Virus record (IMG/VR): IMGVR_UViG_3300018476_000019
Coordinates: 1 to 43,577 of that record
Length of the DNA stretch: 43,577 nucleotides
Source: a virus
Strand: one strand, 5' to 3'
Below, piece after piece: positions 3,677 to 24,800 of this stretch. The translations under genes were made by a program, and so were the position numbers. Position 1 is the stretch's first letter, and the number at the start of each line of letters is the position of its first letter. The notes beneath the pieces are model-generated. The model worked only from the letters and a program-made list of their open reading frames with translations. It was not told the origin of the DNA and made no database searches.

Positions 3677-3756
3677 ATATTGCGGATTATCAGAAGGCCT
3701 GAGTCGCATTGCCCGCAAGGACAGGATTGACGCTGCGGCAGAACGCTCCGCAATAT
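3677..3756. repeat. Paired inverted sites ATATTGCGGA / TCCGCAATAT, 60 bp apart
   Basis: Two perfect ten-base inverted copies occupy 3677-3686 and 3747-3756. A small palindrome (TTGC-CC-GCAA, 3709-3718) sits close to the midpoint. The right copy ends 31 bp before the start of the NusG-like gene and overlaps the only plausible -10 of the rightward promoter, so a regulator bound to both copies could close a loop over it. The spacing and geometry are seen directly; the function is inferred. Confidence 0.55.
3727..3756 (+). promoter_or_regulatory. Possible sigma70-type promoter for the rightward operon
   Basis: TTGACG at 3727-3732 is followed 18 bp later by CAATAT at 3751-3756, a weak -10. Its position 32 bp before the GTG of the NusG-like gene fits. 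The -10 overlaps the right arm of the 3677/3747 inverted pair. Match quality is modest, and phage or host alternative promoters could be elsewhere. Confidence 0.3.
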
Positions 3757-3787: not shown

Positions 3788-4264
3788 GTGCACTGGTCAG
3801 TCGTTCAATCACAGCCAGCCAGCGAGCACCGCGCGATCCGGCACCTTGAGCGCCAAGGCTTCACCTGTTACGCGCCGCGAGAGAAGATCGTGCGCGTCGT
3901 GCGCGGTCGCAAAGTCCACGAGGCACGCTGGCTGTTTCCGCGCTACGTGTTCGTGTGGATCGAGCACCAGTGGCACGCGATCCTCTCGACGTTCGGCGTC
4001 TCGAACCTGATCATGAATGGAGAGCGACCAGCCGCACTTCCGAACGGCTGGGTCACCGCAATGAAGCAACAAGAACACCGCGACGGTCTCATCCACCTGA
4101 AGAAGTCTCGCTTCACGCAAGGCCAGCAGGTCAGGGTCGTCGGAGGACTACTCGACGGACAGCGCGGCATCTACCAAGGGCAAAGCTCTCGCCAACGAGA
4201 GATCGTCCTGCTAGATGCGTTAGGCAAAGTTGAACTGGCACCCGGTCTCCTGCAGGTGGGTTGA
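3788..4264 (+). CDS. NusG-like transcription elongation/antitermination protein
   Basis: A 158-residue protein starting at GTG (GGGAGG, 7 bp upstream). Residues 1-100 match the NGN domain of NusG/RfaH: WSVVQSQPASEHRAIRHLERQGF, then PREKI, then WLFPRYVFVWIE and a GVSNLI segment, corresponding to the NusG core that binds the RNA polymerase clamp. Residues 108-155 (FTQGQQVRVVGGLLDGQRGIY ...VELAPGLL) form the KOW domain. The family binds paused polymerase and either suppresses or promotes termination. As the first gene of a rightward run of about 39 kb without obvious terminators, directly beside a dyad-rich control region, a specialised processivity role like that of RfaH or LoaP is likely but inferred. 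An ordinary host nusG is unlikely because secE and ribosomal-protein neighbours are absent. Confidence 0.88.
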   Translation: MHWSVVQSQPASEHRAIRHLERQGFTCYAPREKIVRVVRGRKVHEARWLFPRYVFVWIEHQWHAILSTFGVSNLIMNGERPAALPNGWVTAMKQQEHRDGLIHLKKSRFTQGQQVRVVGGLLDGQRGIYQGQSSRQREIVLLDALGKVELAPGLLQVG

Positions 4265-4289
4265 GACAGGCGACACGTGGGCAACTGAT

Positions 4290-4308
4290 CAGGGATTGCC
4301 AATCCCTG
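4290..4308. repeat. Palindrome CAGGGATT-GCC-AATCCCTG
   Basis: Perfect eight-base arms with a three-base loop lie in the 99-bp gap between the NusG-like gene and the small terminase gene. No T-run follows (TGGTCCG), so it is not a standard intrinsic terminator. It may be an operator, an RNA processing or pause site, or a recognition element for the NusG-like protein. Confidence 0.55.
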
Positions 4309-4363
4309 TGGTCCGCCGGTAGGCTGCGCCCGGAATTTCATCATAGCCAATGAGGAGTCCGTG

Positions 4364-4783
4364 ATGAACGACGTGGCAACAGTCGATAAGGTCCCGGACC
4401 GATATCCGAACAGGTTCAGGAAGGGCGATGGCCGTCCGCGCAGGAACGGCGCAGGTCTCAAGCACACGCGCCTGTTGCGCGAAGCGATCCTCCTCGCAGC
4501 CGAACTCGAAGGCGAAGACGGCAAGGGTAAGGGCAAGCTGACCGGGTTCATGCGCAAGGTCGCACGTGAAGACATCCGGGCGTTCTGCTCCCTGCTCGGT
4601 CGGGTGATCCCGCTGCAGGTCGAGACCCGCGCGCACGAGATGAAGGAGGAGGTCACCTATCACAACATCGACGACGTCCGCCGCGAGCTTGCGCACCGTG
4701 GCATCTCGATGGAGATCGCACTCAAGGTGATGCGCCCCGATCTCGTGATCGATGATCTCGACGCCGACGACGTCGATGGCTGA
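4364..4783 (+). CDS. Putative small terminase subunit
   Basis: A 139-residue protein. The ATG at 4364 is chosen over the adjacent GTG at 4361 because GAGGAG ends six bases before it. Residues 15-40 are basic (NRFRKGDGRPRRNGAGLKHTRLLREA), like the DNA-binding start of many TerS proteins. The segment EDIRAFCSLLGRVIPLQVE (about 65-83) resembles the conserved part of short terminase small subunits found beside TerL in alphaproteobacterial phages. TerS recognises packaging sites and recruits TerL. Position supports the call: one small gene separates it from the large subunit. The C-terminus is acidic (DDLDADDVDG). The motif is weak, so this rests partly on context. Confidence 0.65.
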   Translation: MNDVATVDKVPDRYPNRFRKGDGRPRRNGAGLKHTRLLREAILLAAELEGEDGKGKGKLTGFMRKVAREDIRAFCSLLGRVIPLQVETRAHEMKEEVTYHNIDDVRRELAHRGISMEIALKVMRPDLVIDDLDADDVDG

Positions 4784-5115: not shown

Positions 5116-6588
5116 GTGGTCGTGTTTGCGCCGGAACGAACGGAAGAGTCTGAATACTTCGATGGAGATATTGAACCGTTCATAGGCGCTGCAGCGATTG
5201 GCGCTCAAGGTACGTTCTGGGAATTCCGCAAGCTGATGCACCCGACGATGCTGAAGGGCTGGTGGCAACGCGACGCCGCTCAGCACCTCCAGCAATTCTA
5301 CGAGGACATGGTCGCAGGCAAACGACCAGCGCTCGTGATGATGGCACCACCGCAGCACGGCAAGACCGAGACGGTGACCGACTTCACAGCGTGGCTGGCC
5401 GGGAAGAATCCAAACCTCAAGACGATCTTCGGATCGTACTCCGACGATCTCGGCGTGCGCGTGAACCTTAACCTGCAGCGCATGATCGACAGCTATCGCT
5501 ACCGCATCGCGTTTCCGAACACGAAGCTGAACACCTCGAACACGTCGAGCGATAGCGCGCGGTGGATACGCAATAGCTCGCTGCTCGAATACGTCGGTTA
5601 CGATGGGAGCTTCCGCAACACCACGGTGATGGGCCAGATCAACGGGCTCGGTCTCGACTTCGGAGTGATCGACGATCCGATGAAGGGCAGAGCCGAAGCG
5701 ATGTCGAAGACGATCCGCGACAAGACATGGGCGTGGATGACCGACGACTTCTTCGGCAGGTTCTCCGACAAGGCCGGGCTGCTGATGATCATGACACGAT
5801 GGCACCTCGACGATCCGCTCGGCAGATGGATCGAAGCATTCCCGAACACGAAGGTGCTGCGCTATCCCGCAGTGGCGGAGCGCGATGAGACGTACCGCAA
5901 GAAGGGCGGCGCGCTCTTCCCGCGATTGAAGCCCATCGAATTCCTGAACGAGCGCCGCAAGGTGCTGACGCAGTCTGGCTGGCAGAGCATCTATCAGCAG
6001 TCGCCTATCGCTGCAGGCGGCGACATGTTTCCGACGGAGCGCTTCAACGTCATCGCTTCCGTGGATCGACGAGAGATCAAGCGCAGCGTGCGCTACGTGG
6101 ACAAGGCTTCATCGACCGGCGAAGGCGACTACACGTGCGCGTCGCTGGTGCACGAGATGAAGAACGGCACGACCGTCGTCGAGGATGTTATCCGTGGCCA
6201 GTGGGGATCGCTCGAACGCGACGAGCGCATCATGCAAGCAGCCATCGGAGACAAGGCGCTGTGCCAGCGATATGAACTCTGGTTCGAGCAAGAGCCCGGC
6301 AGCGGTGGCAAGGAGTCAGCCGAAGCGTCGGTGCGCAAGTTCAAGGGCTTCACCGTGAAGCTCGACAAGGTGACCGGCAGCAAAGAAGTTCGCGCCGAAC
6401 CGTATGCCGCGCAGGTTCAGGCTGGACAGGTCTCGATCAAGGCCGCAGGATGGAATAGGGAATTCCTGCAGGAGCACGAAGAATTCCCCAATGGCAGGAA
6501 TGATGATCAGGTCGATGCGACAGCAGGCGCGTTCAACAAGCTCGCCGCATCCGTCGGATCGTATGATCGCACGTTGTCGTGGGTGTGA
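5116..6588 (+). CDS. terL: Large terminase subunit (ATPase and nuclease)
   Basis: A 490-residue packaging motor protein, the usual TerL length. It starts at a GTG one base after the previous stop, with AGGGGAAG upstream. The ATPase domain shows a Walker A variant MAPPQHGKT at 76-84, Walker B FGVIDD at 182-187, and the coupling motif MTRWH near 226-230. The C-terminal half is the RNase H-like nuclease: aspartates in YVDKAS...GDYT near 327-340 and in NDDQVDA at 462-468 are the likely metal ligands. TerL docks on the portal, pumps DNA into the prohead and cuts the concatemer. It belongs to the broad Terminase_6 type seen in Mu-like and alphaproteobacterial myophages. Confidence 0.95.
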   Translation: MVVFAPERTEESEYFDGDIEPFIGAAAIGAQGTFWEFRKLMHPTMLKGWWQRDAAQHLQQFYEDMVAGKRPALVMMAPPQHGKTETVTDFTAWLAGKNPNLKTIFGSYSDDLGVRVNLNLQRMIDSYRYRIAFPNTKLNTSNTSSDSARWIRNSSLLEYVGYDGSFRNTTVMGQINGLGLDFGVIDDPMKGRAEAMSKTIRDKTWAWMTDDFFGRFSDKAGLLMIMTRWHLDDPLGRWIEAFPNTKVLRYPAVAERDETYRKKGGALFPRLKPIEFLNERRKVLTQSGWQSIYQQSPIAAGGDMFPTERFNVIASVDRREIKRSVRYVDKASSTGEGDYTCASLVHEMKNGTTVVEDVIRGQWGSLERDERIMQAAIGDKALCQRYELWFEQEPGSGGKESAEASVRKFKGFTVKLDKVTGSKEVRAEPYAAQVQAGQVSIKAAGWNREFLQEHEEFPNGRNDDQVDATAGAFNKLAASVGSYDRTLSWV

Positions 6589-7968: not shown

Positions 7969-10900
7969 ATGCTGATCGGCGTCGATGGCAACATGGCCGA
8001 GGAGCTTGATCCGGAGAAGATCAAGAAGGACGGGCTGAAGTTCGTGCACGTGTTCGCGCCGCATCAACTCGCGCCGCAGGAGATCACCAAGGACATCTCG
8101 TCGCCGTACTACGGCCAGCCATCGTTCTACAAGCTCAACGACACGAAGGGATTGTTCGGCGACGTGAGCATTCATCCGTCGCGCATGGTGAGACTTATCG
8201 GGCTCGATCCTCCTGATCCGATGGCGAACTTCGGATGGGGCGATCCGATGATGCACGTGATCCACGACGCGGTGTCGAGCGCTGGCACTGTGCTGCAGAG
8301 CGTGGCCACGATGATCAGCGAAGCGAAGATCGACGTCATCAAGATTCCGGGTCTCACTGAAATCTTCGCGACCACCGACGGCACGCAGCGCATGATCAAG
8401 CGCTTCACCGAAGCGAACATCGCGAAGAGCGTTGTGAACTCGATCCTGATCGACGGTGAGGAAGACTGGCAGCGCATCCAAGTGCAATTCCGTGGCATGC
8501 CCGAAGTGCTGCAGATGTACATTCAGGTCGCAGCGGGAGCGGCGGATATTCCGGTGACGCGGTTCGTCGGCCAGTCACCAGCCGGATTGAATTCGACAGG
8601 CGATGGCGATCTGCAGAATTATTATAATCGCATCGGCGCTGATCAGGCGCTGCGCCTCACGCCAGCGCTGGAGAAGCTCGACAAGGCGATCACGCGCAGC
8701 GCGCTCGGCACCAGCGATCCGAACGTCTTCTACATCTGGAATTCGCTGTGGGAGATGAGCGATCAGGAGAAGTCCGCGATTGCATTGAGCAAGGCGCAAG
8801 CCACCGCGCTCGATGTCAACTCAGGTCTCGTGCCGTTCGATGCGCTGAGCAAGGGCAAGGTCAATCAGTTGATCGAGGACGGCACCTATCCCGGCCTCGA
8901 AGCTGCGATGGAAGAGTCCGCTATCGATGAAGAGATGATGGCGGAGCAGACGCTGAAGAAGCACGAGCAGGCGCTGTTGCCGCCGCCGTCAGGCATGGGC
9001 GGACAGGTTGAAGAGGACGAAGAAGAGTTCGCCGAGGACAGCGTTGATGAGGAGGACGACACCGCACGCCGCTTGCGTCGCGCGATCCACTTCATGAACG
9101 ATGCGCTGCGTGCGTGGAATGAAGAGGCGCACTCGCGCGGCCAGCCGGAGAATGCAGGACAGTTCGGACCGGGCGGCTACGGTGCGAAGGCGAAGGAAGG
9201 CAAGGGCCGCGTTGCGCGTGCTCGCGCACGTGGCAAGGGTGCGAGAGCGAAGGCGAAGGCGCACATCGAGGAGCGTGCAGAGAAGGGCGGATCGAAGCGC
9301 GCGTCGAAGGGCAAGGCTGCGAGGATACCCGCGAGCGAGCGCGTCGCGAAGGCCGCGACGTTCGTATCGCCGAACATCCGCAGCGATCTCGATCTCTCTG
9401 GTGCAGAGAAGCAGCTTGATAGCAAGCAGCAGAAGCTGTTGCTGCGCACATCGAAGGGCATCAACAAGCGGCTCGATCTCGACGACGCCGAAGACGTCAG
9501 CATGATCGGCGCGTGGAAGGATGGTGCCGAGAACTCCATCATGACCGTGAGCGATGGCGACTACGACAAGGTCGCGCTCGCTGCCGTGATGAAGGCGCAC
9601 ATCGCTGATCAGAAAGCGGTGCTCGTGTTCGCCGAAGGTGACGAGGGCGACTCCACGCTGGCGTCGTTCAAGGCGACCGGCGATCTCAAATCAATTCACG
9701 AGAACCTGCTGCAGGACGGCGTCGTCAATCACACGCTGGTGCCGACCGAAGGCGGAGCGCGCGTGTACGTGGTCGATCTCGATGGATCGGCGAGTGATGC
9801 AATCAAACTGGGAGCAATGCGATATGGCGGCGAGTCAAACGAGATCAGGCTCCAGCACGGCAAGGGGGAGTTCATCGGGACCGACAAGGAAGACGGGACC
9901 GACCGCGAGCAAAGAGACAGCGCGCGAGAAGTATACGAGGCTTTCATTGAGCGATCCCCAGTTCGTGGAAGCGACCAAATCTGGAAGGAAGTCCACGATG
10001 CTTGGAGCGCGTCCAATGCCGCACTCGGGCAGAAAGTAAGGAACGTCATCGAGGGTCCGCAGGACAAGGACCCTGATCCGATGGGCCGGTGGGTTCAGCT
10101 TGGCGGCAAGATCGACACCGACGCTGTAGAGAAGCAGACGAGGGCGAACGTCACCAAGGCTGCGGCGGCGGCGAAGGCCGCAGGCACCACGCCATTGCCG
10201 GGCAGCAAGGCCGAACATCCGGCGACGATTGCATCGGCACCGATCACGGTGAAGGGCTCGACGCCGTCGTATCGCAGGCCTGAAGTCGCTGGCATGAAGC
10301 TCGATCCGGAGCGCTACGCGCACGACATCGGACTGTTCAGCAACGAGGACTTCTATCCGAACTTCGGGCCGAACGAATTGCAGGGCGACACCGATCAGCA
10401 GACGACAGCCATCGTCGCGCAGATGAAGGACAATCTGAAATGGTTGTACAAGTTCGCCGATCCTCACACTCAGGTCTGGTACGACGGCGCGCGTGCGCTG
10501 GTCGATGATCGCGTGAAGATATTCGGCTTCAACGATGCGAGCGTCGCTGGTGTTTACGCTGCGCTGTCGCCGACGAAGAAGTGGGATGAGAACGTCCAGA
10601 TCGCCGACGCGCTGATGGACATCTACAAGAACAAGCAGGATCACGCTTGGGACGACAAGATGACCGAGACCGCCGACGACATCTGGTCCGGCGGCACCAA
10701 GGTGGCGAAGAAGAATCAGGCGGTGGTGAAGTCGATCAGCGGCAAGAAGCTCGGCGAGTTGACCGATCCGACGGAGAAGGCGATCTGGATTCGCACCTAC
10801 GACGAGGCGCACAACTCGCAAGCCTATCGCGACGTGCTGCCGAACGGTGCGCTCGGAAAGTTCGCGCGCAACCAAGATGAGTTCGGCACGCCAGCGCATA

Positions 10901-11442
10901 TCGTGTGGCAGTCGGTGGCGTCGGTGAAGTCCGCCGTGATGGCGCTCGAAGCCAACGGTGATCGCGAGAAGATCGACGCAGCGTTCGGCAACGCGCACAA
11001 GGTGCGCTCGTTCTACAACAACATCCTCGATCCGCACTCCGAGAACGGCGACGTCACCATCGACACGCACGCGGTCGGCGCTGCGTTGCTGCGTCAACTC
11101 TCGAACAAGACGGTGCCGGTCGCGCACAACTTCGGCAATACGCCGGAGAAGAAGAACCAGCCAGTGGGTTGGGATGCTGCGGGCTCGTCGATCAAGACTG
11201 GATTGAGCGGACTCTACCCGGTCTATGCGACCGCGTATCACGAGGCAGCGAAGGAGCTTGGCATCCAGCCGCGTCAACTGCAGTCGGCGGTGTGGGTGGT
11301 GAAGCGCGAGACGTTCGGCAACATGAGCGACAAGGCGAGAGCCGACAGTGAGCAGGCATGGCACGACTATCACGACGGCAAGGCCACGCTTGATGAGACG
11401 CGTGAGAGGATCGCGAAGCTCGCAGGATTGAAACGCAAATGA
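7969..11442 (+). CDS. Portal protein main part fused to two non-portal domains
   Basis: The frame is open from 7873; 7969 is only its first internal ATG and has no clear ribosome binding site, so the true product probably begins at 7660. Numbering from 7660 (1260 codons): residues 1-450 are a DUF1073-type portal, with AGAADIPVTRFVGQSPAGLNSTGDGDL and an acidic end (EEDEEEFAEDSVDEEDD). Residues 484-506 carry AWNEEAHSRGQPEN-AGQFGPGG, followed by a Lys/Ala/Gly-rich linker. Residues about 566-770 form one globular region (MIGAWKDGAENSIMTV... GARVYVVDLDG). Residues 877-1260 form another, ending in VTIDTHAVGAALL and LGIQPRQLQSAVW. The portal is the 12-mer DNA channel; the extra 750 residues are far beyond the family length and may be internal cargo. 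The PF06381 family is linked to anti-CBASS Acb1 fusions, but I do not see the paired HxT motifs of Acb1. Confidence 0.88.
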   Translation: MLIGVDGNMAEELDPEKIKKDGLKFVHVFAPHQLAPQEITKDISSPYYGQPSFYKLNDTKGLFGDVSIHPSRMVRLIGLDPPDPMANFGWGDPMMHVIHDAVSSAGTVLQSVATMISEAKIDVIKIPGLTEIFATTDGTQRMIKRFTEANIAKSVVNSILIDGEEDWQRIQVQFRGMPEVLQMYIQVAAGAADIPVTRFVGQSPAGLNSTGDGDLQNYYNRIGADQALRLTPALEKLDKAITRSALGTSDPNVFYIWNSLWEMSDQEKSAIALSKAQATALDVNSGLVPFDALSKGKVNQLIEDGTYPGLEAAMEESAIDEEMMAEQTLKKHEQALLPPPSGMGGQVEEDEEEFAEDSVDEEDDTARRLRRAIHFMNDALRAWNEEAHSRGQPENAGQFGPGGYGAKAKEGKGRVARARARGKGARAKAKAHIEERAEKGGSKRASKGKAARIPASERVAKAATFVSPNIRSDLDLSGAEKQLDSKQQKLLLRTSKGINKRLDLDDAEDVSMIGAWKDGAENSIMTVSDGDYDKVALAAVMKAHIADQKAVLVFAEGDEGDSTLASFKATGDLKSIHENLLQDGVVNHTLVPTEGGARVYVVDLDGSASDAIKLGAMRYGGESNEIRLQHGKGEFIGTDKEDGTDREQRDSAREVYEAFIERSPVRGSDQIWKEVHDAWSASNAALGQKVRNVIEGPQDKDPDPMGRWVQLGGKIDTDAVEKQTRANVTKAAAAAKAAGTTPLPGSKAEHPATIASAPITVKGSTPSYRRPEVAGMKLDPERYAHDIGLFSNEDFYPNFGPNELQGDTDQQTTAIVAQMKDNLKWLYKFADPHTQVWYDGARALVDDRVKIFGFNDASVAGVYAALSPTKKWDENVQIADALMDIYKNKQDHAWDDKMTETADDIWSGGTKVAKKNQAVVKSISGKKLGELTDPTEKAIWIRTYDEAHNSQAYRDVLPNGALGKFARNQDEFGTPAHIVWQSVASVKSAVMALEANGDREKIDAAFGNAHKVRSFYNNILDPHSENGDVTIDTHAVGAALLRQLSNKTVPVAHNFGNTPEKKNQPVGWDAAGSSIKTGLSGLYPVYATAYHEAAKELGIQPRQLQSAVWVVKRETFGNMSDKARADSEQAWHDYHDGKATLDETRERIAKLAGLKRK

Positions 11443-13526
11443 GTGAACCCGCTGATGACATGATCGAGTGGATGAAGGCCGAAGGGCTCGACATCTCTCG
11501 CGAGAACTACATCGCGTTCAACTGGGGCAGCGTTGCCGAGTGGACGGTCGAGCACGAAGCCGAACTTCCGGAGTCGCTGCAGGACTGGTCGCTGTTCGTG
11601 CCGGACAAGAAGACCGGCGAGCTTGTCTACATCGGCGATGAGGAGGAGCCCGACGACCCTTTCCGTGATGCCCGCGCGTGGAACGAAGAAGCTCATTCGC
11701 GCGGGCAACCTGATAACGCTGGCCAGTTCGGCCCCGGCGGCTTCGGTGGGAAGGCAAAGGCAGCGAAGGCGAAGGCACGCGCGAAGAGTGCAGGCAAGCG
11801 ACGCCGCAGTGAAGCGGAAATCTCCAAGCACATCGCACGCCTGAAGAGGGAGGGCGGCAGCAAGGCGGAGATCACAGCAGCGTACAACGAGAAGCGCGAG
11901 CTTCGGATGGAGGGTGTTCGCCGCGAGCGCAAGGAGTCTGCAGCCAAGCGAGCGAGCAAGCCAGCGAGCAAACCGGCACGCCGAACGCCAGCGGAGATCG
12001 TCACCAAGGCGCAGATGGAGCAGGAGGCGAAGGTCAGCCGCCTGAAGGAGAAGCGCGAGGGCAAGGGCAAGAAGCCGGTAGACAAGAAGGCGTTCGACGA
12101 AGCGAAGATCAGGATCGGCAGCGGCACCGACGAGAAGAACTTCATCAAGAGTTGGAACGACAAGATCGGCATCGATCCCGAAGTGTTCAAGCATGACTTC
12201 CTTGGCGGCGTCGATGCGACGATGTCGATCAACAAGGAGGGCAGCAAGTTCGTCGTCAACGGCTCGATCAACGGCACTGGCCGACATGAAGGCCGCAGCG
12301 TTGGCACCTACACGCGCGAGATCGATCCGGATCGCAAGTACGCTTACAGCGCGTTCTTTGAATTGCAGAAGGGCGTGCAGCACGGCGACATCGGCAAGAA
12401 GGTGCTGGCTGGCAACGTCGAGACCTACGAGAAGCTCGGCATCGAGGTCGTCGGCGTCACTGCGAACATCGATGTCGGCGGATATGCGTGGGCGAAGTAT
12501 GGATACGTGCCGACGCCTGAAGCGTGGAGCGATCTGCGCAGTTCGCTGAAGCGCTCGATCAACAGCGGCGGTGGCTCACGTGGATCATCGCGCCGCAGCG
12601 CAAATCAGGAAGAGGCGGAAGAGTGGGACTGGCTGAGCGAGGAAACGCAGAACGATGTGCGTGATCGCTGGATGTCCGACAGCCGACAGGAATTCCTCGA
12701 CAGCGAGATCGAGAACTGGCGCGACAGCGGACAGGCGCTGAACGAAGCGAAGCGCGAACTCGCCAGCAACTTCAGCGACAACGTCGATCCGCCGGAGTGG
12801 GTCAACGATGCGATCCAGTCCGCACGTGAAGAGCACGAGGAGAGCGGCAAGAAGATTCCCTTCACCAACCAGCAAATCTATCTGGCGATGAAGGCTAACG
12901 AATACAATTCGCGCTACGACGACGGGCGCGACGACATCGAGTTCGAGTTCGACGACGGTGAACTGAAGGAGCCGAAGGGCTACGATCCGAACCAGAAGAC
13001 GCTGCCCGGCATCGAGAAGGTCGAGCCGCACGAGTACCTGACGCAGGACGCGCGCGATATCATCATCAAGCACGTCGCATCGGATGCGAATGATCGCGCC
13101 GAGAGCGAGGCCGGTAACGTCGAGCCGCCGGAGTATCTCGCCGATCAGGTTGGCGAGTATCAGGACGAATACTGGGACTCGATGGACGACGACCAGAAGC
13201 TGGAGCACGCGCGGCGCTACGATCTGCACTACTACGAGGGCGCACCGGACGAAGACGAGGACGAGGACGAAGAGGAAGAGCCGGATCAGAAAGAGATGGA
13301 CGTCGGCAAGGTGCAGACCGAAGACGAGAAGCTGCTTGAGATACTGGAGTCGAACAATCCGAAGGCGGTGTGGAAGTTCGCTGACAGCGGTGAGCGCGCG
13401 AAGAAGTTGCTGCTCGGCACCAACTGGCGCGGCAAGCTCAACCTCAAGGACCCGGAGGCCTACAAGCGCTTCAAGGATTACGTGGCGCGCGTGAAGAAGG
13501 AAGAGGCCAGTGGCAAAGAAGCCTAA
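11439..13526 (+). CDS. Multi-domain virion-associated protein with GQF motif and GNAT-like domain
   Basis: A 695-residue protein starting in an ATGA overlap with the portal gene. Residues 1-60 (MIEWMKAEGLDISRENYIAFNW...AELPESLQDW) resemble a short stand-alone protein found near phage portals. Residues 79-101 repeat the portal motif AWNEEAHSRGQPDN-AGQFGPGG. Residues 105-215 form a Lys/Arg/Ala-rich coiled coil. Residues 218-365 look like a GNAT acetyltransferase-type fold: AYSAFFELQKGVQHGDIGKKV occupies the place of the acetyl-CoA loop, followed by VGGYAWAKYGYVP. Residues 395-610 are acidic and helical with an internal repeat (DPPEWVNDAI, EPPEYLADQV). The C-terminus is Asp/Glu-rich, then basic. 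A head-packaged effector or morphogenesis protein is inferred from motif and position; enzymatic activity is unproven, since the canonical Q/R-x-x-G-x-G/A loop is not intact. Confidence 0.8.
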   Translation: MSEPADDMIEWMKAEGLDISRENYIAFNWGSVAEWTVEHEAELPESLQDWSLFVPDKKTGELVYIGDEEEPDDPFRDARAWNEEAHSRGQPDNAGQFGPGGFGGKAKAAKAKARAKSAGKRRRSEAEISKHIARLKREGGSKAEITAAYNEKRELRMEGVRRERKESAAKRASKPASKPARRTPAEIVTKAQMEQEAKVSRLKEKREGKGKKPVDKKAFDEAKIRIGSGTDEKNFIKSWNDKIGIDPEVFKHDFLGGVDATMSINKEGSKFVVNGSINGTGRHEGRSVGTYTREIDPDRKYAYSAFFELQKGVQHGDIGKKVLAGNVETYEKLGIEVVGVTANIDVGGYAWAKYGYVPTPEAWSDLRSSLKRSINSGGGSRGSSRRSANQEEAEEWDWLSEETQNDVRDRWMSDSRQEFLDSEIENWRDSGQALNEAKRELASNFSDNVDPPEWVNDAIQSAREEHEESGKKIPFTNQQIYLAMKANEYNSRYDDGRDDIEFEFDDGELKEPKGYDPNQKTLPGIEKVEPHEYLTQDARDIIIKHVASDANDRAESEAGNVEPPEYLADQVGEYQDEYWDSMDDDQKLEHARRYDLHYYEGAPDEDEDEDEEEEPDQKEMDVGKVQTEDEKLLEILESNNPKAVWKFADSGERAKKLLLGTNWRGKLNLKDPEAYKRFKDYVARVKKEEASGKEA

Positions 13527-13752
13527 GTCCGACGGCTACGGCGACTACTTCGAGTCCGAGTTCGAGGACGAGATCAACGCTGAGCTTGATGCGCTGAAGG
13601 GCGACAGCAACGAGTTCTTCTATCGCGATGAGTTCGGCGAGAAGCAAGACCAGCGACTGCACGGGCCGATCATCAACCCGGTTGACTACGAGATCGACGA
13701 CGATCTCATGGAGCCGATCCGCGCAAGGTATCGCAAGAAGTTCGGGAGTTGA
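13510..13752 (+). CDS. Small acidic hypothetical protein
   Basis: An 80-residue protein starting at GTG with GGAAGAGG upstream, overlapping the previous gene by 17 bp. It is acidic (YFESEFEDEINAELDALKGD) with a basic tail (IRARYRKKFGS). No domain recognised. Its position between head genes suggests a minor structural or chaperone role only by context. Confidence 0.65.
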   Translation: MAKKPKSDGYGDYFESEFEDEINAELDALKGDSNEFFYRDEFGEKQDQRLHGPIINPVDYEIDDDLMEPIRARYRKKFGS

Positions 13753-13754
13753 CC

Positions 13755-14267
13755 ATGCTCGCTAACCTACCAGCCACCATCCGCGCAGGTGAGAGTATAT
13801 CCGAAGCCGTCGATTGCACTGGCGGTCGCGTGCTGCGCATCACCATCCCAGAGAATTACGACGAGCACGACACGCCAGTGATGACGTTCCAGTCGTCTGC
13901 AAATGGTGTGGACTTCTTCGATCTGGTCAACGATCAGGGCATGCAGCTATCGATCACGGCGCGACGCAGCACTACGATCCACGTCGGGCAGGCTTGGACG
14001 CATGCGCTCGGCTGGATCAAGATGAGAGCCGGATCGAAGGCCAACGCGCGCGAGCAGTCGGAGGATGTCACGATCATGGTCTCGATCACGCCATCAACCT
14101 CCGTGGTGTTCGGCGGTGGCGGTGCCTACACCGGAGAGACAGCGCCGGAAGGCGTTGCCGATGGATCGATCTGGTGGAATTCTGCCGACGGTCCGAGTGC
14201 AGCGAAGCGGCTCTACGTGAAATACTTCGACGGGAATTCATCGCAATGGGTAGCGGCAGAACAGTGA
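13755..14267 (+). CDS. Small tail/fibre-type structural protein with a WW-DG module
   Basis: A 170-residue protein. The ATG at 13755 (GGGAG six bases upstream) is preferred to the TTG at 13749. Residues 1-115 are beta-rich (AGESISEAVDCTGGRVLRITIPE ... VTIMVSITPST). The C-terminal 43 residues, ETAPEGVADGSIWW ... LYVKYFDGNSSQWV, are one copy of a module that recurs five more times in the fibre proteins downstream. This suggests a small adhesin, decoration or fibre-connector protein rather than a head enzyme. It precedes the MuF gene, so a virion role is likely; no named family. Confidence 0.75.
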   Translation: MLANLPATIRAGESISEAVDCTGGRVLRITIPENYDEHDTPVMTFQSSANGVDFFDLVNDQGMQLSITARRSTTIHVGQAWTHALGWIKMRAGSKANAREQSEDVTIMVSITPSTSVVFGGGGAYTGETAPEGVADGSIWWNSADGPSAAKRLYVKYFDGNSSQWVAAEQ

Positions 14268-15175
14268 GCGGCTCGCGCGATCCGACACGAAGTCAGGGCT
14301 TGCGCAGCCAAGGGCGCGGCATGGTCACTCGAAAGGTGATCGAGCTTCATCGCGGCTTGCGTCAAGCTGTGCTCGACTATGATGTTGCAGGTCTGCGTGA
14401 GCGCGAACCGGCGATGACGTTCATCAACTGGGGCGAGGCATCGTCGCATCATCTGCAGCGCACGTCGTCGGTGATACAGGCGACCGTTGACACCGCGCTG
14501 CTCAATCCTCCCGACTGGCTCGGCGGATTGATCGAGCGCGCTGTGCAGAAGGGCGTCGATCAGGCGGCGCAGGAGTTGAAGGCGTCGCTCGATCACCTCA
14601 ACATCGATGACGCGCTCGCTGTGCATTCGTTCGCCGTCATGAGCGAGGTGACCGGCATCGCGAATGAAACGATCCGCCGCACGTTGCGCCACGTGAGCGA
14701 TGCAGTGGAGCGCAAGACGTCGCCGGAGATATTGATGCGCGATCTGCGCATCGTGCTGGAGAAGATCACGAAGTTCAGGCTGAACATGCTGGTGAACACC
14801 GCAGTGGTCCGCGCGGTGAACGCTGGCAAGATCGTTGCCTACAAGGATCAGGGCATTCGGCAGGTCGGCGTCACGCCGGAGTGGATGCCGGTGCCGCACA
14901 TGCACGACGCGAAGAAGAAGACGAAGAAGGCGACGACGAAGAAGAAGAAGGGGAAGGTGGTCGCGGTCTGGAGTCCTGATCCATTGCTGGTCAACGTGCT
15001 GACGTCGGGCGACGACCGCGTGTGCGACGACTGCAACGATCTTGCCGAAGACGGACCATACGACATCGACACCGCGCAGGAATTGATACCGAGTCATCCG
15101 AATTGCAGATGCGCGTTCGTGCCGTTCGATGATAAGCGCTACGCTCCAGTCGAAGAACAGGATGAGGAGTGGTGA
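14264..15175 (+). CDS. MuF-type head morphogenesis protein
   Basis: About 303 residues from the GTG at 14264 (GTGA overlap); an ATG at 14246 is an equally possible start, and the ATG at 14322 a third. The C-terminal half carries the Phage_Mu_F signature: NTAVVRAVNAGKIVAYKDQG, then WSPDPLLVNVLTSGDDRVCDDCNDLAEDGPY ... IPSHPNCRCAFVPF, in which two CxxC/CxC-like pairs and a histidine may bind zinc. A Lys-rich insert (KKKTKKATTKKKKGK) sits in the middle. MuF proteins are minor capsid proteins attached to the portal and needed for head assembly and DNA delivery. A second protein (34125-34748) shares the same Cys/His motif. Confidence 0.88.
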   Translation: MSGSRDPTRSQGLRSQGRGMVTRKVIELHRGLRQAVLDYDVAGLREREPAMTFINWGEASSHHLQRTSSVIQATVDTALLNPPDWLGGLIERAVQKGVDQAAQELKASLDHLNIDDALAVHSFAVMSEVTGIANETIRRTLRHVSDAVERKTSPEILMRDLRIVLEKITKFRLNMLVNTAVVRAVNAGKIVAYKDQGIRQVGVTPEWMPVPHMHDAKKKTKKATTKKKKGKVVAVWSPDPLLVNVLTSGDDRVCDDCNDLAEDGPYDIDTAQELIPSHPNCRCAFVPFDDKRYAPVEEQDEEW

Positions 15176-15178
15176 AGC

Positions 15179-15370
15179 GTGAACTTGCAGCGGGGCTATC
15201 TTCCTGACGGCAAAGATCGGCAGCATCCTGTTCGTGATCCCGATGATCGCGAGCAGCCGATGCAGCCTGCGCTGTGGGTGAGTCCGCACTCGCTGACATG
15301 GTATCAACTCTCCGGCGTGCGCGTCGTGCCTCCGGCAACAGTGATACCGGAAGAACCGGATAATGGCTGA
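15179..15370 (+). CDS. Small hypothetical protein
   Basis: A 63-residue protein starting at GTG three bases after the MuF stop, with GAGGAG upstream inside the MuF gene. The sequence [23 protein letters not shown] is hydrophilic. It includes [22 protein letters not shown], a short segment that could form beta strands. It overlaps the start of the collagen-like gene by eight bases, so coupling is likely. No family recognised. Confidence 0.6.
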
Positions 15371-18300
15371 TGGCAACTCACGTGCGAAGATGCGTGGCTT
15401 CGTGGTTCAGGATGCTGGAGCACAGCTTCCATCGGAGTCGCCTGCCGATCCGCACGTCTGGCTGATCAATCGACTTCACCGTGATGAGCACGGTGATCCT
15501 GTTCAGGAAGGCATCTTCGCCAACTACAACGATGACATCGTCATCGAGCAGGATGCAAACACTCTCGTTGGCCGAACCTCCCCGGCGAGAGGACCCGCTG
15601 AGCGCATCGTCGTCGCGTCCCCCCTGACGCTGCGCGATGGTGTGCTCAGCGGCACGCCCGGCGGAGAGCAGGGACCGCAAGGTCCGATGGGTCCGCAGGG
15701 TCCGCAGGGTGCGCAAGGTCCGAAGGGAGAGAAGGGCGACAAGGGCGACACTGGCGCGCCGGGCGCGCACGGATCGCCGGGACCAACAGGCCCGCAAGGT
15801 CCGCGTGGTTATCAAGGACCGCGCGGTGAGAAGGGCGCGGACTCAACGGTGCCGGGTCCTCCGGGTCCGCAAGGCGAGCGCGGCATCCAAGGCGATGAAG
15901 GCGCACCGGGTGCAGACTCGACTGTACCGGGACCGCCCGGCGCAACAGGTCCGCAAGGTCCGCAAGGCCCGCAAGGTTCTGCAGGTCCTGCATCAACGGT
16001 GCCCGGTCCCGCTGGCGCTGAAGGTCCGCAAGGTCCGATAGGTCCTGCAGGTCCGACAGGTGCAGACTCAACTGTGCCCGGCCCGCCCGGCGCGACTGGT
16101 CCTGCAGGTGAGCAAGGACCGCAAGGTGTCGCTGGTGCAGACTCGACAGTGCCGGGTCCTGTTGGTCCCGCTGGTGTCGCTGGTCCGATGGGACCGCAGG
16201 GCGAGCAAGGACCGGCGGGGCCGCAAGGCCTGACTGGAGAGAAGGGCGACACTGGCGACGCATCGACAGTGCCCGGTCCTGCCGGACCGCAAGGCGTCGA
16301 AGGTCCTGCAGGTGCGAAGGGCGATCAAGGTGTAGCAGGCGCACAAGGTGCGCAAGGCATTCAGGGTGTGCCGGGCGAAGTCGGCGCACAAGGCCCGCAG
16401 GGTCCGGTCGGTCCGGCCAGTACGGTGCCGGGTCCTGCGGGTCCGAAGGGTGATGCAGGCGCGCAAGGTCCTGCAGGTGTCGAGGGTGCTGTCGGTCCCG
16501 CTGGTCCGCAAGGTGTCGCTGGCGCTGACTCGATTGTGCCGGGACCTGAAGGCCCGCAAGGAGTCGCTGGTCCCGCTGGTCCGCAAGGCGCGAAGGGTGA
16601 TGCGGGAGTCGCTGGTCCTGCAGGCCCGCAAGGTTTGCCGGGTGACGTCGGCGCGCAAGGTCCGCAAGGAGTCGCAGGTGTCGATGGCGCTGATGGTGCC
16701 GACTCGACAGTGCCCGGCCCGCAAGGTCCCGCTGGTGCGCAAGGTGTGCAAGGCGTCGCTGGTCCTGTTGGTCCCGTTGGTCCTGCAGGTCCGCAAGGTA
16801 TTCAAGGCGAGCCCGGCGTCGGTGAAGTTGATGAAGCTCCGCTCGATGGGAAGATTTACGGACGCGTCATGGCGACGTGGACCGAAGTCATCCACACGGG
16901 TGAAGGCGGCGGCGGCGAGCAAGGTCCAATCGGTCCCGCTGGTCCTGCTGGACCTGCTGGCCCGGCTGGTGCTGATGGCGTTGATGGTGTCGATGGCGCA
17001 CCGGGTGCGCAAGGACCACAAGGCGCGCAAGGTCCTGCAGGCGCGAACGGCATCGACGGAGTCGATGGTGATGACGGCGCGATAGGTCCGCAAGGTCCGG
17101 CTGGTCCGAAGGGCGACGCAGGCGCGAACGGAGTCGATGGTCGCGACGGTGTCGATGGCGTTGACGGCGCACCGGGTCCGCAAGGTGTGCAGGGACCGAA
17201 GGGCGATCCGGGCGCGAGCGTCACGGGTCCTGTCGGTCCGCAGGGTCCGCAAGGTCTGCCCGGCGAGCAAGGCTTGCAAGGCGTGCCGGGTGCCGACGGT
17301 GCCGATGGCACGAACGGAATTGATGGCGCACCGGGAGAGATGGGACCGCCCGGCCCGATGGGCGCGAACGGTCCGCGCGGTCCGCAGGGTCCTGAAGGCA
17401 TCGCTGGCGTCGATGGCTCACCGGGAGAGACGGGAGCGCAGGGACCGCAGGGCGAGCAGGGCATTCCCGGCGCTCCGGGCGTCGCTGGTGCAGACTCCAC
17501 GGTGCCGGGACCGCAGGGGCCGAAGGGCGATCAAGGACAGCAGGGCGCGCCCGGCGCTGACGGTGCGCCCGGTCCGCAAGGTGTCGCGGGTCCTGCAGGT
17601 GCCGACGGCACGAACGGAGTCGATGGCGCGCAGGGTCCGCCCGGCGCTGATGGTGCCGACGGTGTCGATGGGCTCGAAGGTCCGCGCGGACCGCAAGGCA
17701 TCCAAGGCCCGCCCGGCATGGCGGGATCGCAGGGCGCGCAAGGTGTGCAAGGTCCTGAAGGTCCTCCCGGTCCCGAAGGCGCTGCATCGACGGTGCCGGG
17801 TCCTGCAGGTCCTGCGGGTCCGCAAGGTCCCGTTGGTGATCGAGGACCGCAAGGCATTCAGGGAATGCCCGGCGCTATCGGTCCGCAAGGTGAGCGAGGC
17901 GAACAGGGCGAACAGGGCGAGCAAGGCGTTCCCGGTGACATCGGGCCGCAGGGCGAATCGGGATCGCAAGGAGAACAGGGACTCACGGGTCCGGCTGGTC
18001 CGATAGGTCCGCAAGGCGAGATCGGACCGCAGGGACCGCAAGGTGCGATGGGTCAACCCGGCGAGGTGCAAGAGGCACCTATCGACGGGAGAGTCTACGG
18101 GCGCATCAACGCGACGTGGCAGGAGGTCATCCACGGCGAAGGCGGTGGAGGTGGCAGTGCACGTGTCACGATCTCCGATACAGTGCCGACGACGGCTGTG
18201 CACGGTGACCTGTGGTGGCAGTCATCGTCGGGCACGATGTTCATCTACTTCGATGATGGCACCAGTGCTGCGTGGATCGTCGAAGCGCAGTGGCCAGTCA

Positions 18301-19178
18301 TCGCGAGTGATGCGCCGCCGCAAGGTGCGCGCGATAACACGTTGTGGTTCGACACGCGCACGTGCGTGCTCTTCATTCGACTGAACGATGGCACGTCATC
18401 GCAGTGGGTGCAGATCGGATCGAGCGGTGGTGGTGATGGCACGCAAGGTCCGCCCGGACCGCAAGGTGAGCCGGGACCAATCGGACCGGCGGGACCGGCT
18501 GGTCCTGCGGGTGCTGATGGTGCTGATGGTAGCGACGGCATTGATGGCGCTGATGGTGCTCAAGGTCCAGTAGGTCCGCAAGGTCCCGCAGGTCCTGCAG
18601 GCAGCGGCGAAGGTGGAGCAAGAGTCACAACGGCGGATGCGCCGCCGCTCGATCCCGTCGATGGCGATCTCTGGTACGACACGCGCGTCGGTCAGTTGTT
18701 CGTCTACTACGTCGAGGACGATGAGTCGTCTGCGCAATGGGTGATCTCGAATGTCGGCAACGAAGGACCGAAGGGCGACACTGGAGACGCGGGCGCTCCG
18801 GGCGCAGCGGGTCCTGTTGGACCTGAAGGCCCGCAGGGTATTGCTGGACCGGCTGGTGCTGCAGGCGTTGACGGAGTTGACGGTGCTGACGGGGCTGCGG
18901 GTCAACAAGGTCCAGCGGGACCGGCTGGTGCGGACGGTGCACAAGGACCGCCAACCTACGCGCTGATCAGCGACACCGCGCCAATCGATCCACCGGATGG
19001 TTCTTTCTGGTGGAAGTCATCAACCGGCGTGCTGTACGTTCGCTATCGTGATGGGGACAGTGCCGCGTGGATTCAGGCAGTCGCATCACCGACATCAGAG
19101 ATCGCAGCGCTCACCGCTGCATTGAAGTCAGCGCTTGAACGCATCGAAGTGTTAGAGGCGAAGCTCAATGGGTCTTAA
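15363..19178 (+). CDS. Giant collagen-like fibre protein
   Basis: A 1271-residue protein. Residues 1-95 are a non-repetitive head, probably the virion anchor. Residues 96-485, 519-899 and shorter tracts near 1025-1080 and 1132-1195 are Gly-X-Y repeats rich in GPQ, GPA, GAD and GVD, expected to form trimeric collagen triple helices. Eleven (S)TVPGP segments break the triplet phase and may act as hinges. A module EAPxDGxxYGR...ATWxEVIH occurs twice (about 489 and 902). Four WW/WF-x-DG modules lie in the last 360 residues ([60 protein letters not shown]). The C-terminus, [22 protein letters not shown], is a coiled coil that could nucleate trimers. Collagen-like tracts are known in phage tail fibres; this one is unusually long. 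Host-receptor contact is inferred. Confidence 0.9.
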
Positions 19179-21813
19179 CTTTCCATCATCACCACTCGTC
19201 GGAGAGGTTTATCCGAACCCCGCAACGCCCGGCGTGCCGCAGTACATGTGGGACGGTGAGGTGTGGGGCTCTTCGCTCGGCGGCGTAAACCCCGCGCTGT
19301 TCGTGCAGAAGAGCGGCGACGTGATGAGCGGCGATCTCGTGATTGGGAAGAACGCGCCGCAACTTGTTCTCGACCGACTCGACACCACGACGAACGCGTC
19401 ACTGGTCGGCAAGACCGCAGGCGTTGTGCGCTGGTCGATCAGCATGGAGGACATTCTCGAAGTCCTCTTCCATGATGGCAGCGTCGCGTCGCCGATCCTC
19501 ACTGGCCAGTATGCCGACGGCAGAGCGAAGGCGTCGGTGCCTCAGCTTGATGTCGCACGCAGAGCAAGCGTTGCCGATCTCGCGATCAAGGGTCCGACGC
19601 CGCGCGTTGATATCTACAGGAACGGCGAGACCGTCGATCAACTACGCTGGTCGCTGCGATCCGTCGATCCGGAGAGTAGCGGCACGAACACCGGATCGAA
19701 CCTCTTGCTCGAACGCCGCGCCGACGACGGCGGACTTCTCGGCTACGCGTTCGAGGTTGATCGCGCGACTGGTCGCTTGGACACGCGAGCGATCAGCACG
19801 AAGGGCGACGTCACGATCACGCGCGACAACGACACCGGCTTCCTGTTCTTCGGCAATGTCGTCGGCGATGCGTATCTCGGATTCTCCGGCACGAGCTTCT
19901 CTCTCTACGGTGGGCCGCTCTATCTCAACGAAGGTCTGACCGTTGACGGTGATCTGCGAATTCAAACCGACGGCGACGTCACGTTGCTGCGCGATCCATC
20001 GCAGCCGCTGCACGCGGTGACGAAGCAGTACGTCGATGCAATCGAGTTGCTGCCCGGCCCGACTGGTCCCGCAGGCGCGGACGGTCTCGATGGCGCACCG
20101 GGAGCGACAGGACCGGAAGGCCCGAAGGGTGACACTGGCGACATCGGCCCGGCTGGTGCTGATGGTGTCGCAGGCGCGCAAGGTCCCGCAGGCGCAGATG
20201 GCGCACCGGGAGCAACGGGACCTGCAGGTGCGGACAGCGTGGTGCCGGGACCGACCGGACCGCAGGGACCGCAGGGTGAAGTCGGACCGCAAGGACCGGC
20301 AGGCGTCGCCGATACTTCAGCGCTCGTGCTCAAGAGCGGTGACGTGATGACCGGCAATCTATCGGTGCCGAGTCTCACGCTGGGCTCGACGTCGATCACC
20401 GAGAGCTTCACGGAGTGGGGCTCGACCGCTGTCGTGACGCCGGTCTACTTCGACTATCATTCGAGCGGACCGAGTGGCGCAGACTACGACGTGCGCATCA
20501 GCTACAGCGGCGGCACTGCTGTATCAGCGCAAGGCACGATGCAGGTCGAGGCCGCGCAATCGATCTTCACTGGCTACCTGAGAGCAAACGGCGGAGTGCA
20601 TGCGTGGCCGCTTTGCGTGAAGGGTGGACCGGACATCAACATCGGCTTCCTCGACGGCGGCAGCGGCACTGCGCTGTTCGGCAACATCAACGATGCAGGA
20701 TCGTCGTGGACACCGATCAGCATTCCCGGCGCGCTGATTCTCTCCAATACGCTGACCACCTACGGCTACACGACCAACAGCGGGCAGACGTGCAACGGCG
20801 GGATGCTCATCAACGGCGACATCACCTCGCATCGCGGCGACACGACCGGCTACTACTTCCCCGGCAATTCCGGTGCGCGCTACTATGGCTTCGATGGCGG
20901 CTCGATGATCGTGAACGGCGCTGGCGCTCCGTTCCGCTACGTCGGCTCTGGGTCGTTCGACGCGGGACTCACTGCCGGTGGCTCGATCAGCACTGCGGCG
21001 AACTTCCATCTCAACAGCGGCAACGGCATCTACTTCGAGCAGGGCAACACCGTCCGACTCTATTGGGACGGCACCAACCTTGTCAGCAGCTACAACGGAT
21101 TCTATTCGGTTGGCGCGCTCGGTTGCAGCGGTAACGTCAACTGCGGAGGCACGAGCTATTCGACGTGGGGCTTCTGGACGCACAGTTGCAGTGGCGCTGG
21201 TCAGCCGTACATCGCGAGCATCGCTGGCGGCAATCCTGCGTGGGGCAACATCTATCTGCAGGGACTGCACTACGGCGGCAACTGGGCGGGCTTCAACATC
21301 GACAACGGCGGACAGGGCACGTTCTCGCTGCGCGGTGGTGGTGTTTGCTACAAGAGCGGCGGCTTCATGTACTGGGACGGCTACTCCGACGCGCGCATCA
21401 AGGATGTGCTCGGCGAGTACAAGCAGGGACTCGAAGCTGTCTGCGCGCTCGAACCCGTGAGCTACGTCTACAAGGGCAACGACACGTTCGCGCCAGCATC
21501 GCACTTCAGCGACACCGTGACGGCGAAGGCCGAGTATCCGGCGAACCGCGCGGAGATCGAGGCGCTGCCGCTCATTGCTCCATTCGAGAATTCACCGAAC
21601 GCGTTCGTCGCGCGCGAGCGCACGGTCTACGTCGGGCTCGTTGCGCAGCAAGCCGAGAAGTCGATGCCGGAATTGTTCAGACGCGAGAAGGGATACATCG
21701 ACGGCATCGAGGTCGATGATCTGCGCAGCGTCAACTACACTGCACTGACGTTCGCGATGATCAACGCATTCAAAGAACTGAAGGCACGCGTCGAAGCGCT
21801 GGAGGCTGCTTAA
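19168..21813 (+). CDS. Tail fibre with collagen patch and S74 intramolecular chaperone
   Basis: An 881-residue protein starting 11 bp before the stop of the collagen-like gene. Residues 1-36 are the module [15 protein letters not shown]...MWDGEVW. Residues 45-290 contain two units of the LDRxDT...VVRWSIS type, ending in [16 protein letters not shown]. Residues about 295-378 are Gly-X-Y repeats. Residues 380-735 are a Gly/Ser/Asn-rich beta region, probably the receptor-binding shaft. From residue 740 comes a Peptidase_S74 (endosialidase-type) chaperone: SDARIK with S740 and K745 as the likely autocleavage pair, then [17 protein letters not shown] and a terminal coiled coil [14 protein letters not shown]. 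The chaperone trimerises the fibre and then normally cuts itself off, leaving a mature fibre ending near 739. Confidence 0.92.
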
Positions 21814-21815
21814 CA

Positions 21816-24800
21816 ATGGCAATGAATTTCCCCGACGCGCCGACGAGCGGCGACATCTACGGACCCTATCAATGGGACGGCGAGAAGTGGGTGACCATCG
21901 GCACTGGTGATGGCGGCGAAGGCGGCGGCGGTCTCGATCAGGCAACCGCCGATCTGCGCTACGTCAACATCGCTGGCGACGCGATGGCTGGATTCCTCGC
22001 GCTGCACGCCGATCCGACCGATCCGTTGCACGCGGTGACGAAGCAATACGCTGACGCGCTGAGCGGCGGTGGCGGCGGTGGTGCGTATCTCCCGCTGAGC
22101 GGCGGCACACTCACTGGCAAGCTCAATCTTCCGGAGAATATCCCCGACGACTACATGCCGTCGCTGGCGTTCGGCCCGGAGAGAAACACCGGCCTGATCT
22201 TCGCAGCGGTCGATGACATCCCTGCGTATCAGGGACTGATGGTGATGCTCGACGGCCAGTTGAAGGCGTCGTTCTTCACCAACGGACCGACGTCTTTCTA
22301 CGGTCAACTGCAGTTGCCGCGCGATGCGATCACCGCGCCGCCCTACACGTTCTCTGCGATGTACGGCTCCGGCCTGTACGGATCAGAACCCGTCGAGGGC
22401 GAAGAGATCATCGGCATCTCGATCAAGACCGTCAGCAGGTTCGCGGTCTCGGAGACTGGCATCACCACGACAGTGCCGGTCACATTGCCTGCCGATCCGA
22501 CGGCGGCGCTGCATGCGGCGACGAAGGCTTACGTGGACTCCGTCGCGGGCGGCGGCGGCGGAGCAACCGGCGATTATCTTCCGCTCGCAGGCGGCACGCT
22601 GACCGGCGCTCTTGTCATCTCAACGAGCTATGCATCTCTTTATCTGGACAAGAACGGAATCGATCAGAGCGCCGTTCTTATTGGAATGCACGAGAACAAC
22701 TATCGATGGACTATGCATCTGGGAGACGAGGCTCCCGACAGTTCTGATAGCGGGAGCAACTTCAGGCTTGAGCGCCACACTGCCAATGGCGCGGCCACGG
22801 TTCTTACCTTTGATCGTGCTTCAGGACTCGGCACTGTCGCAGGCGATCCGACTGCTCTGCTCGGCGTCGCGACGAAGCAATACGTTGATGCCCTCGCAAT
22901 GGCTGGCGGCTCGTTCGTCGATGCGCCAAGCGACGGGCAACAGTACGCGAGGCAGGATGCGAACTGGGCTGTCGTCGCGGGCGGCGGTGGCGGTGGCGAT
23001 TATCTCCCGCTGACTGGCGGCACGCTGACTGGCGATCTCTCTGCGCCCGGCTATCTGCTCGGACTCAACAAGTTCGCGATGGTGGACACTGCGGCCAATC
23101 GCGTGACGGTGTGGGGCACTAACACCGTCAAGGAGACGCTGCGGCTCGGCGTTTCTGCCAACGAATACTTCGCCGACTCCCATAGCTTCAAAGGCAGCGA
23201 TGGGATGTCCACGATCTTCATCGCCAGCAAGACTTCTGGGGTGGCGTACTACAAGCCGGTCTCGTTGCAGGCCGATCCTCAACAGCCACTTCATGCCGCG
23301 ACCAAGCAATACGTTGATGCGCAGGTTGCTGCGGGTGGCGGCGGCGCGACCGGAGACTATCTTCCGCTGAGCGGCGGCGAGATCACTGGCGATCTCGCGA
23401 TCTCGAAGATCGATCCGGTGCTGGTGCTCGAACGTCCCGACACGCTGTCGAGCGCCCAGATCATCAGCAAGGTGAGCGGCGTCGATTACTGGACGATGAC
23501 GCTTGGCATCATTGGCGACAACGATTTCAGTCTTTATCGCAGCTTCAGCGGGAGCACGAATCCTGCTTTCTCCATTGAGCACGACACTGGCATCTTCAAT
23601 ATCTATTCGAGGCTCGAAGCGCGGGCCGACATCAATACTCCGAACCTGACGGTCATGTTCGATGCAACGCTTGGCCGCGATCCGACATTGCCGCTTCACG
23701 CCGCGACGAAGCAGTACGTTGACGCCGTCGCTGGCGGCGGAGGTGGTGGTGAAGGTGGCGCATACCTGCCACTGATCGGCGGCACGCTGACTGGCGATCT
23801 CACAATCGCGACAGCGTCACCAACGCTGACGCTTGATCGCGCAGACCATTCGACCAACAACATGATCGAGGCCAAGCGAGGCGGCGTGCCGGAGTGGCGC
23901 GTCGTGCTTGGCGACAACATCAACTACGACTTCTACATCGAGAAGTTCGACTCCGACGGCGTCAGCGGCGGCAAGGTCTTTCACATCGAGTCTGCCGCTG
24001 GCTGGGTCACGCTGACCACAGTGCTGCAAGCGCAGGCTGGAATCCAAGCGACGAACCTGAGTGTGAGCGAAGGCGTGTGGCTCGCGCGCGATCCGACGCA
24101 GCCGCTTGAAGCAGCGACCAAGCAGTACGTCGATCTGGTCGCGTCCGGTGGAGGTGGCGGCGCGTATCTCCCGATCACTGGCGGCACCGTCACTGGCAAC
24201 CTGCGCGTTGAAGCGCCTTCGGGAAGTCCGGCGGCTTACCTGATTGCGACGCAAGCCCAGATTCAGAACCGCCTTCAGATCACCGGAGCGGCAGACGAAT
24301 CCGCTGGCGGCTATTTGGAATTGGGCAAATGGGCGAACGGTCTGGTTGCTCGCGTCTACGGCTCATACCAAGGCGAGCCGGTGTGGGACATCACGCTCGG
24401 CAATGAAAGCCCGATGGGACTCCCTGAAGAGAACTGGAAGGGCAACGACTTCGAGATCGCGAGCTACGACAACTTTGGTCGCAACCGCGATATCAACTTC
24501 AAGATTGATCGCTACACCGGCAAGGCCACTGTTCACAGCGATCCTGTCGAGCCGCTTGGTATCGCGACGAAGAACTACGTCGATGCGCGGTTCGGCATGA
24601 TCCACGTTGATGACGTGATGCCAACCAACGTGCAAGAGCACGTGCTGTGGTGGGACACGGTAGAGGGCCAGCTTTATATCAGGATGGTCGATGCCGACTA
24701 TTCCGTGCAGTGGGTGCAGGCGGTCCCCGATCCCTACTACATGCTGAAGACGACCGGCGGATCGATGACTGGTCCGATGCTCCTCGCTGCCGATCCGACG

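Follow-up and report, generated by a model that had tools for sequence, protein, structure and literature searches.

The window analysed here is the whole of the IMG/VR record IMGVR_UViG_3300018476_000019, a linear stretch of 43,577 bases with 62% GC. It belongs to a soil phage lineage in which an RfaH-type gene heads the long operon of late genes for capsid and tail. Leftward and rightward genes are separated by a divergent non-coding region of ~670 nt. The ORF at 3788-4264 is the first rightward gene beyond this region, and all identified genes from there to the end of the window lie on the + strand, in agreement with a previous interpretation of the same DNA (hereafter the sequence-only reading) that had placed the gene first in the rightward run. 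The identified late genes follow in the order TerS, TerL, portal, MuF-like, fibres, protease, major head, baseplate and tail; the portal gene (7969-11442) encodes 1157 aa with a portal domain and a long extension carrying DUF7178 repeats. The operon of ~39 kb proposed earlier measures 39.8 kb in the window and ~49 kb in near-complete relatives (G004 and G005). Both contig ends of G004 (80.6 kb) fall inside the same MuF gene, so that this genome is likely near complete and circularly permuted; its rightward run occupies ~72.0-80.6 plus 1-40.1 kb.

Table 1. Features of the window, with coordinates, strand and basis of assignment
Feature	Position	Strand	Basis or detail
Leftward genes: AAA+ ATPase and small genes	ATPase 496-2136	-	
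Putative operator, imperfect palindrome TTGCCCGCAAGGACAGG, abuts the -35 box	3709..3725	+	family consensus TTGYCC-N3/4-GGACA
Putative promoter of nusG and late operon	3727..3756	+	-35 TTGACG, 18-nt spacer, -10 CAATAT
RfaH-like NusG paralogue (NGN + KOW), 158 aa	3788..4264	+	Pfam, PHROGs, NCBIfam, PDB sequence search, AlphaFold2/Foldseek, tree
Hairpin of the element	4290..4308	+	stem CAGGGATT, loop GCC, stem AATCCCTG
ops-like site GCCGGTAGGCTG	4315..4326	+	core CGGTAG 4317-4322
terS-like gene, first after the element	4361..4783	+	PHROGs (phrog_11043)
Terminase large subunit	5116..6588	+	Pfam Terminase_6N/6C, phrog_38
Rest of late run, continues off the contig	7969..43577	+	
Late genes within this run	portal 7969; MuF-like 13814; fibres 15363-24896; protease 28768; major head 30696; baseplate 35941-37463; then tail	+	

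The ORF at 3788-4264 has a GTG start and the SD-like sequence AGGGAGGG. Its product matched Pfam NusG (E 1.3e-17) and PHROG 6386 'transcription antiterminator' (1.2e-17), and the NGN domain of the NusG family is present (PF02357, 64.5 bits against a cut-off of 22.2). The earlier description of a NusG-like protein is therefore right as to the family, but the protein is RfaH-like and not a generic NusG. Among the NCBIfam models RfaH ranked first (TIGR01955, 98.5 bits against a curated cut-off of 144.5; NF006534, 83.9 against 124), followed by UpxY (61.9 bits), housekeeping NusG (TIGR00922, 49.9 against 135.7) and LoaP (NF033641, 29.8 against 125), with all scores below the cut-offs. The closest PDB sequence was RfaH (3.5e-12, versus ~2e-5 for NusG). 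Foldseek superimposed the NGN of the AlphaFold2 model on the RfaH:ops structure 5ond with an rmsd of 2.0-2.6 A at 31% identity, and a plasmid RfaH (9ik0) was also among the matches. The KOW of RfaH is alpha-helical when autoinhibiting and refolds to beta. AlphaFold2 predicted a beta KOW for the phage protein and likewise for a control RfaH above the cut-off, so we dropped the alpha versus beta fold of the KOW as evidence.

We compared the window with 15 distinct IMG/VR relatives (50-70% identity), giving 16 loci. The phage proteins form one clade (support 100/99) apart from the bacterial RfaH-like proteins and separated at 100/100 from the distant NusG. RfaH-like genes in bacterial records were distant (28-39% identity), and a search of isolated-phage records returned no close protein relative, only RfaH or NusG genes from bacterial assemblies and a handful of short contigs that lack annotation. 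Two further phage-like contigs, L021 (10001-10474) and L022 (a Deltaproteobacteria MAG contig, 5146-5643), carry RfaH-like genes at or near their ends, directly 3' of replication modules. These modules are unrelated and phage-type, with PolA, clamp loader, gp32-like and RecA-like genes or with helicase and Prim-Pol/DUF3987. No additional viral relatives came from searches seeded with L021 and L022. Because the gene directly follows a replication module there too, the strategy proposed below may be widespread in uncultured phages.

Of the residues that mark RfaH, H20, Q24 and T72 are invariant in all 16 family proteins, R23 is kept in 12 of them, and the position of R16 holds R or K. H20, Q24, R23 and R16 are absent or mostly absent in NusG, T72 being the exception. 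Throughout the family, K10 is replaced by Q or H and R73 by F, I or L. Two of the four RfaH side chains that contact ops (K10, H20, R23 and R73) are thus exchanged, and the ops readout must differ from that of RfaH. The best reading is that the protein works like RfaH; we do not claim RfaH membership, because the score falls short of the curated cut-off and two of the recognition residues are different. If this reading is true, the loss of K10 and R73 provides a naturally altered form of the NusG paralogue that has been studied most.

Upstream of the gene, a block TTGYCC-N3/4-GGACARGG-TTGACG lies 79-120 nt 5' of the start codon, both in the window and in most relatives; no other site in the same record matches better. 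TTGACG or TTGACC is found 61-102 nt 5' of the start in the window and in L005, L009, L010, L011, L013, L015, L017, L018 and L032, and reads as a putative -35 box with the palindrome as adjoining putative operator. The upstream dyads, which had been suggested as recruitment sites, thus look like promoter and operator sites instead. The divergent region also contains conserved CAAGTGCTTA- and ATATCARSCACTTAG-like sites (window ~3575-3630), partly in inverted orientation, which recur in L005, L007, L010, L011, L015, L017, L018, L030 and L032 and are perhaps operators of the leftward promoter. In a scan of the 39-kb run for sigma-70-type sites, no internal promoter stood out.

Terminator-like sites occur at chance level in the window, and runs of at least four A or T are found nowhere in it, so that the usual intrinsic terminators can hardly exist there. 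The earlier description of the run as terminator-free thus holds for the window, and Rho and pausing are the likely opponents of late transcription, as for RfaH. The composition of the window is unusual: AAAA and TTTT together occur 0 times on both strands versus ~114 expected from base composition, and AAA reaches about one third of expectation. Both tetranucleotides are partly depleted in the sister record G004 (74 versus 211 expected, with the minimum in the late operon) and near expectation in more distant relatives. Palindromes of 6 bp are depleted in the window (550 versus 944 expected) and in G003-G005, as if many restriction sites were avoided; in the window, CGATCG (147 expected), GCCGGC (72), CTCGAG (57) and AAGCTT (34) all have counts of 0 on both strands against a Markov expectation. 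A Stutzerimonas stretch shows no such palindrome depletion.

Downstream of the gene, the sequence-only reading had pointed to a perfect palindrome, which indeed spans exactly 4290-4308 (CAGGGATTG-C-CAATCCCTG). With 8 perfect palindromes with arms of at least 8 in the window versus 6.4 expected, the palindrome is at chance level, and we rejected it as a signal by itself. It does form the hairpin part of a conserved element whose second part, the CGGTAG at 4317-4322, had been missed; the idea of a recruitment site thus stands for the composite element and not for the palindrome alone. The element consists of a stem-loop, then 5-10 nt, then CGGTAG, and is found 3' of stop codons. CGGTAG is present at 14 of the 16 distinct loci, where ~1.7% per 100 nt is expected; the exceptions keep the stem and have a degenerate core (GGTGT in L002, CGGACG in L030/L031). 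Both degenerate-core loci (L002 and L030) are among the four whose protein carries R23W, a weak hint of coevolution between protein and site. The whole window contains 8 CGGTAG versus 8.2 expected, so only position, hairpin and conservation carry weight. The window site GCCGGTAGGCTG is identical to E. coli ops GGCGGTAGCGTG at 9 of 12 positions without keeping the full 12-mer, a level of match reached by chance at many other places. We rejected the search for exact E. coli ops as too degenerate to help in a GC-rich genome.

Stem pairing is kept with altered sequence at all 16 loci. A MAFFT alignment of the whole element misplaced the stems between subgroups, and the stems were therefore compared by hand and also tested against shuffles and background sites. 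The 5' stem arms share 37% identity, stem and loop sequences are not conserved, and each of the first six stem pairs occurs as 4-6 pair types. Summed over 14 loci, the stem length was 97 versus 37.9 (sd 8.5) in dinucleotide shuffles, none of 1000 being as high, and at least 6 stem pairs were found at 13 of 14 loci versus 6 of 58 other CGGTAG sites (Fisher p 5e-9). A protein that binds the nascent RNA stem-loop, with CGGTAG only as pause or spacer, would account for a stem that persists even at the two loci with degenerate CGGTAG, and LoaP does act via an RNA hairpin (PMC12691694). However, the sequence of stem and loop drifts whereas CGGTAG is invariant at 14 of 16 loci, and the protein scores far from LoaP; we consider such a LoaP-like, hairpin-led mode unlikely.

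The ops core has a pairing of its own. In C3-G4-G5-T6-A7-G8, the C3:G8 pair forms a mini-hairpin on the non-template strand that presents G5 and T6 to RfaH (PMC5995543). The adjoining 2:9 pair was complementary at 14 of 14 phage loci (AT 8, GC 4, CG 2, no mismatch), versus ~29% of background CGGTAG sites. Cells with double changes numbered 6 versus 1.5 by shuffling (0 of 500 as high), although these cells are related and the double changes on the tree possibly as few as two. If the proposed role is true, this natural covariation offers a ready test of how far ops recognition depends on hairpin shape and how far on sequence. Phage antiterminators are diverse, and a stem-loop behind a promoter recalls boxB or put: the element could be an RNA site resembling nut or put that works by itself or together with host NusA/B/E/G, and not be the target of the NusG-like protein, which would then be a general factor, for example a genome-wide competitor of host NusG. 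We regard this as quite improbable, since no boxA-like TGCTCTTTA with up to 2 mismatches was found at 3135-5075, CGGTAG with 2:9 pairing is exactly what RfaH targets, and the element always accompanies the RfaH-like gene.

The position of the element is informative as well. terS was found 3' of it in 14 of 15 relatives. In L005, L006 and L014 an inserted HNH endonuclease gene (~10465-10902 in L005) overlaps the nusG stop codon and separates the RfaH-like gene from the ops-like element. In these loci the element lies 3' of the HNH gene (in L005 CGGTAG is 506 nt past the nusG stop) and still adjoins terS, which makes it part of the late leader rather than of the nusG gene end. Lying 40 nt 5' of terS in the window, the element might instead serve terS as operator, attenuator or translational leader, with the NusG paralogue only an autoregulator or translation coupler; RfaH is known to activate translation too (PMC7819879). 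Yet the hairpin has no T-run on its 3' side and so is not an intrinsic terminator, and the stem stays paired while its sequence changes, when in a plain operator the sequence itself should be conserved. This explanation appears very improbable. Between CGGTAG and terS, L010, L013, L015 and L018 have a second, AT-rich inverted repeat CTGTAAATTACAG, with variants in L002, L011, L017, L020 and L030; the window has no such repeat or only a degenerate form.

Across the genome stretches examined we found no second conserved copy of the element; another hairpin with CGGTAG in G004 (~40.4 kb, minus strand) is not matched in the searched stretches of G003 and G005, and we took it to be due to chance. 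Two exact element patterns matched only viral contigs that also carry the gene, and the element is fully conserved only in one phage lineage and L021. The L021 element gave JUMPstart as the top of 4227 Rfam families, with a weak match (14.3 bits, E 0.98). In the window, JUMPstart (RF01707, gathering threshold 35 bits) found no match and the Rfam scan nothing at gathering threshold; at L019 and L032 there was no JUMPstart match and nothing useful. The JUMPstart model gave only 19.6 bits at the Stutzerimonas ops locus. Stutzerimonas rfaH genes (L027 ~10600-10630, and L028) offer a cellular parallel, a stem-loop followed by the exact ops GGCGGTAGCGTG.

From the protein family, the order of the genes and a conserved element of two parts that shows compensatory changes, we propose that the gene encodes a phage RfaH-type antiterminator that acts in cis on its own late operon and is recruited at a JUMPStart/ops-like element (probability roughly 0.78). 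Host RNA polymerase would start at a single late promoter (~3727-3756), transcribe the RfaH-like gene and pause at the ops-like site (4315-4326) in the terS leader. In the paused complex the non-template strand would display the CGGTAG mini-hairpin, with the nascent RNA stem-loop just behind the polymerase; in the window the stem would be ~14-17 nt behind the expected pause position, where it could hinder backtracking or help display. The phage protein would bind this complex via its NGN, stay on the enzyme, displace host NusG and suppress pausing and Rho-dependent termination across the 40-49 kb late operon, and its KOW domain would perhaps couple the ribosome. Given the order of promoter, factor gene, ops-like pause with stem-loop and late genes, each transcript would yield the factor before the loading site is passed. 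We also put forward, tentatively and on odds somewhat short of even, that this is a further class of phage processive antitermination. In it, a virus-encoded RfaH-type factor would load in cis just past its own gene, at a composite site that serves as both non-template DNA hairpin (XC-GGTA-GX') and nascent RNA stem-loop, and its DNA readout, having lost K10 and R73, would depart from the RfaH code.

The sequence-only reading had likened the system to RfaH and LoaP, as a phage variant of their strategy; comparison supports this, of the RfaH and not the LoaP type by score, with antitermination as the presumed outcome. The phage system shares with RfaH and ops/JUMPStart of E. coli and other proteobacteria a NGN+KOW paralogue, a long operon, a leader stem-loop followed by CGGTAG, pairing of the C3:G8 and G2:C9 type and part of the T6 pocket (H20, R23, Q24). 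A conserved stem-loop is already known from JUMPstart elements (PMC2864571), and the anatomy of stem-loop plus ops is thus known in bacteria. The phage system differs in that the gene is a phage gene and stands first in the operon that it should control, with one dedicated site; K10 and R73 are replaced, the ops flanks vary, the spacer from stem to CGGTAG is ~8 nt, and the protein falls below the NCBIfam RfaH cut-off in a separate clade. rfaH-like genes occur on plasmids and prophages (PMC7593976); in our literature search this one sentence on prophages was the nearest statement, and we found no description of a phage ops site or of a phage factor and site pair. ActX/TraB-type RfaH paralogues of conjugative plasmids, likened here by description only (PMC12691694 and general knowledge), are also mobile-element NusG paralogues near a long operon of the element, whereas the phage gene serves a packaging and virion operon. 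LoaP is likewise a specialised NusG paralogue with a leader hairpin, but it works with an RNA hairpin of the UNCG type and does without ops (PMC12691694). Lambda N/nut, lambda Q and HK022 put share the role, processive antitermination of a phage operon, but rely on unrelated proteins or RNA, and the search at 3135-5075 found no boxA in the phage locus. To our knowledge, none of the known phage solutions for long operons (lambda N, Q, put, phage polymerases and Xp10 p7) uses the NusG fold; if our proposal is true, phages too have adopted the RfaH/ops principle, and the operon opened by the factor is also the one that encodes it.
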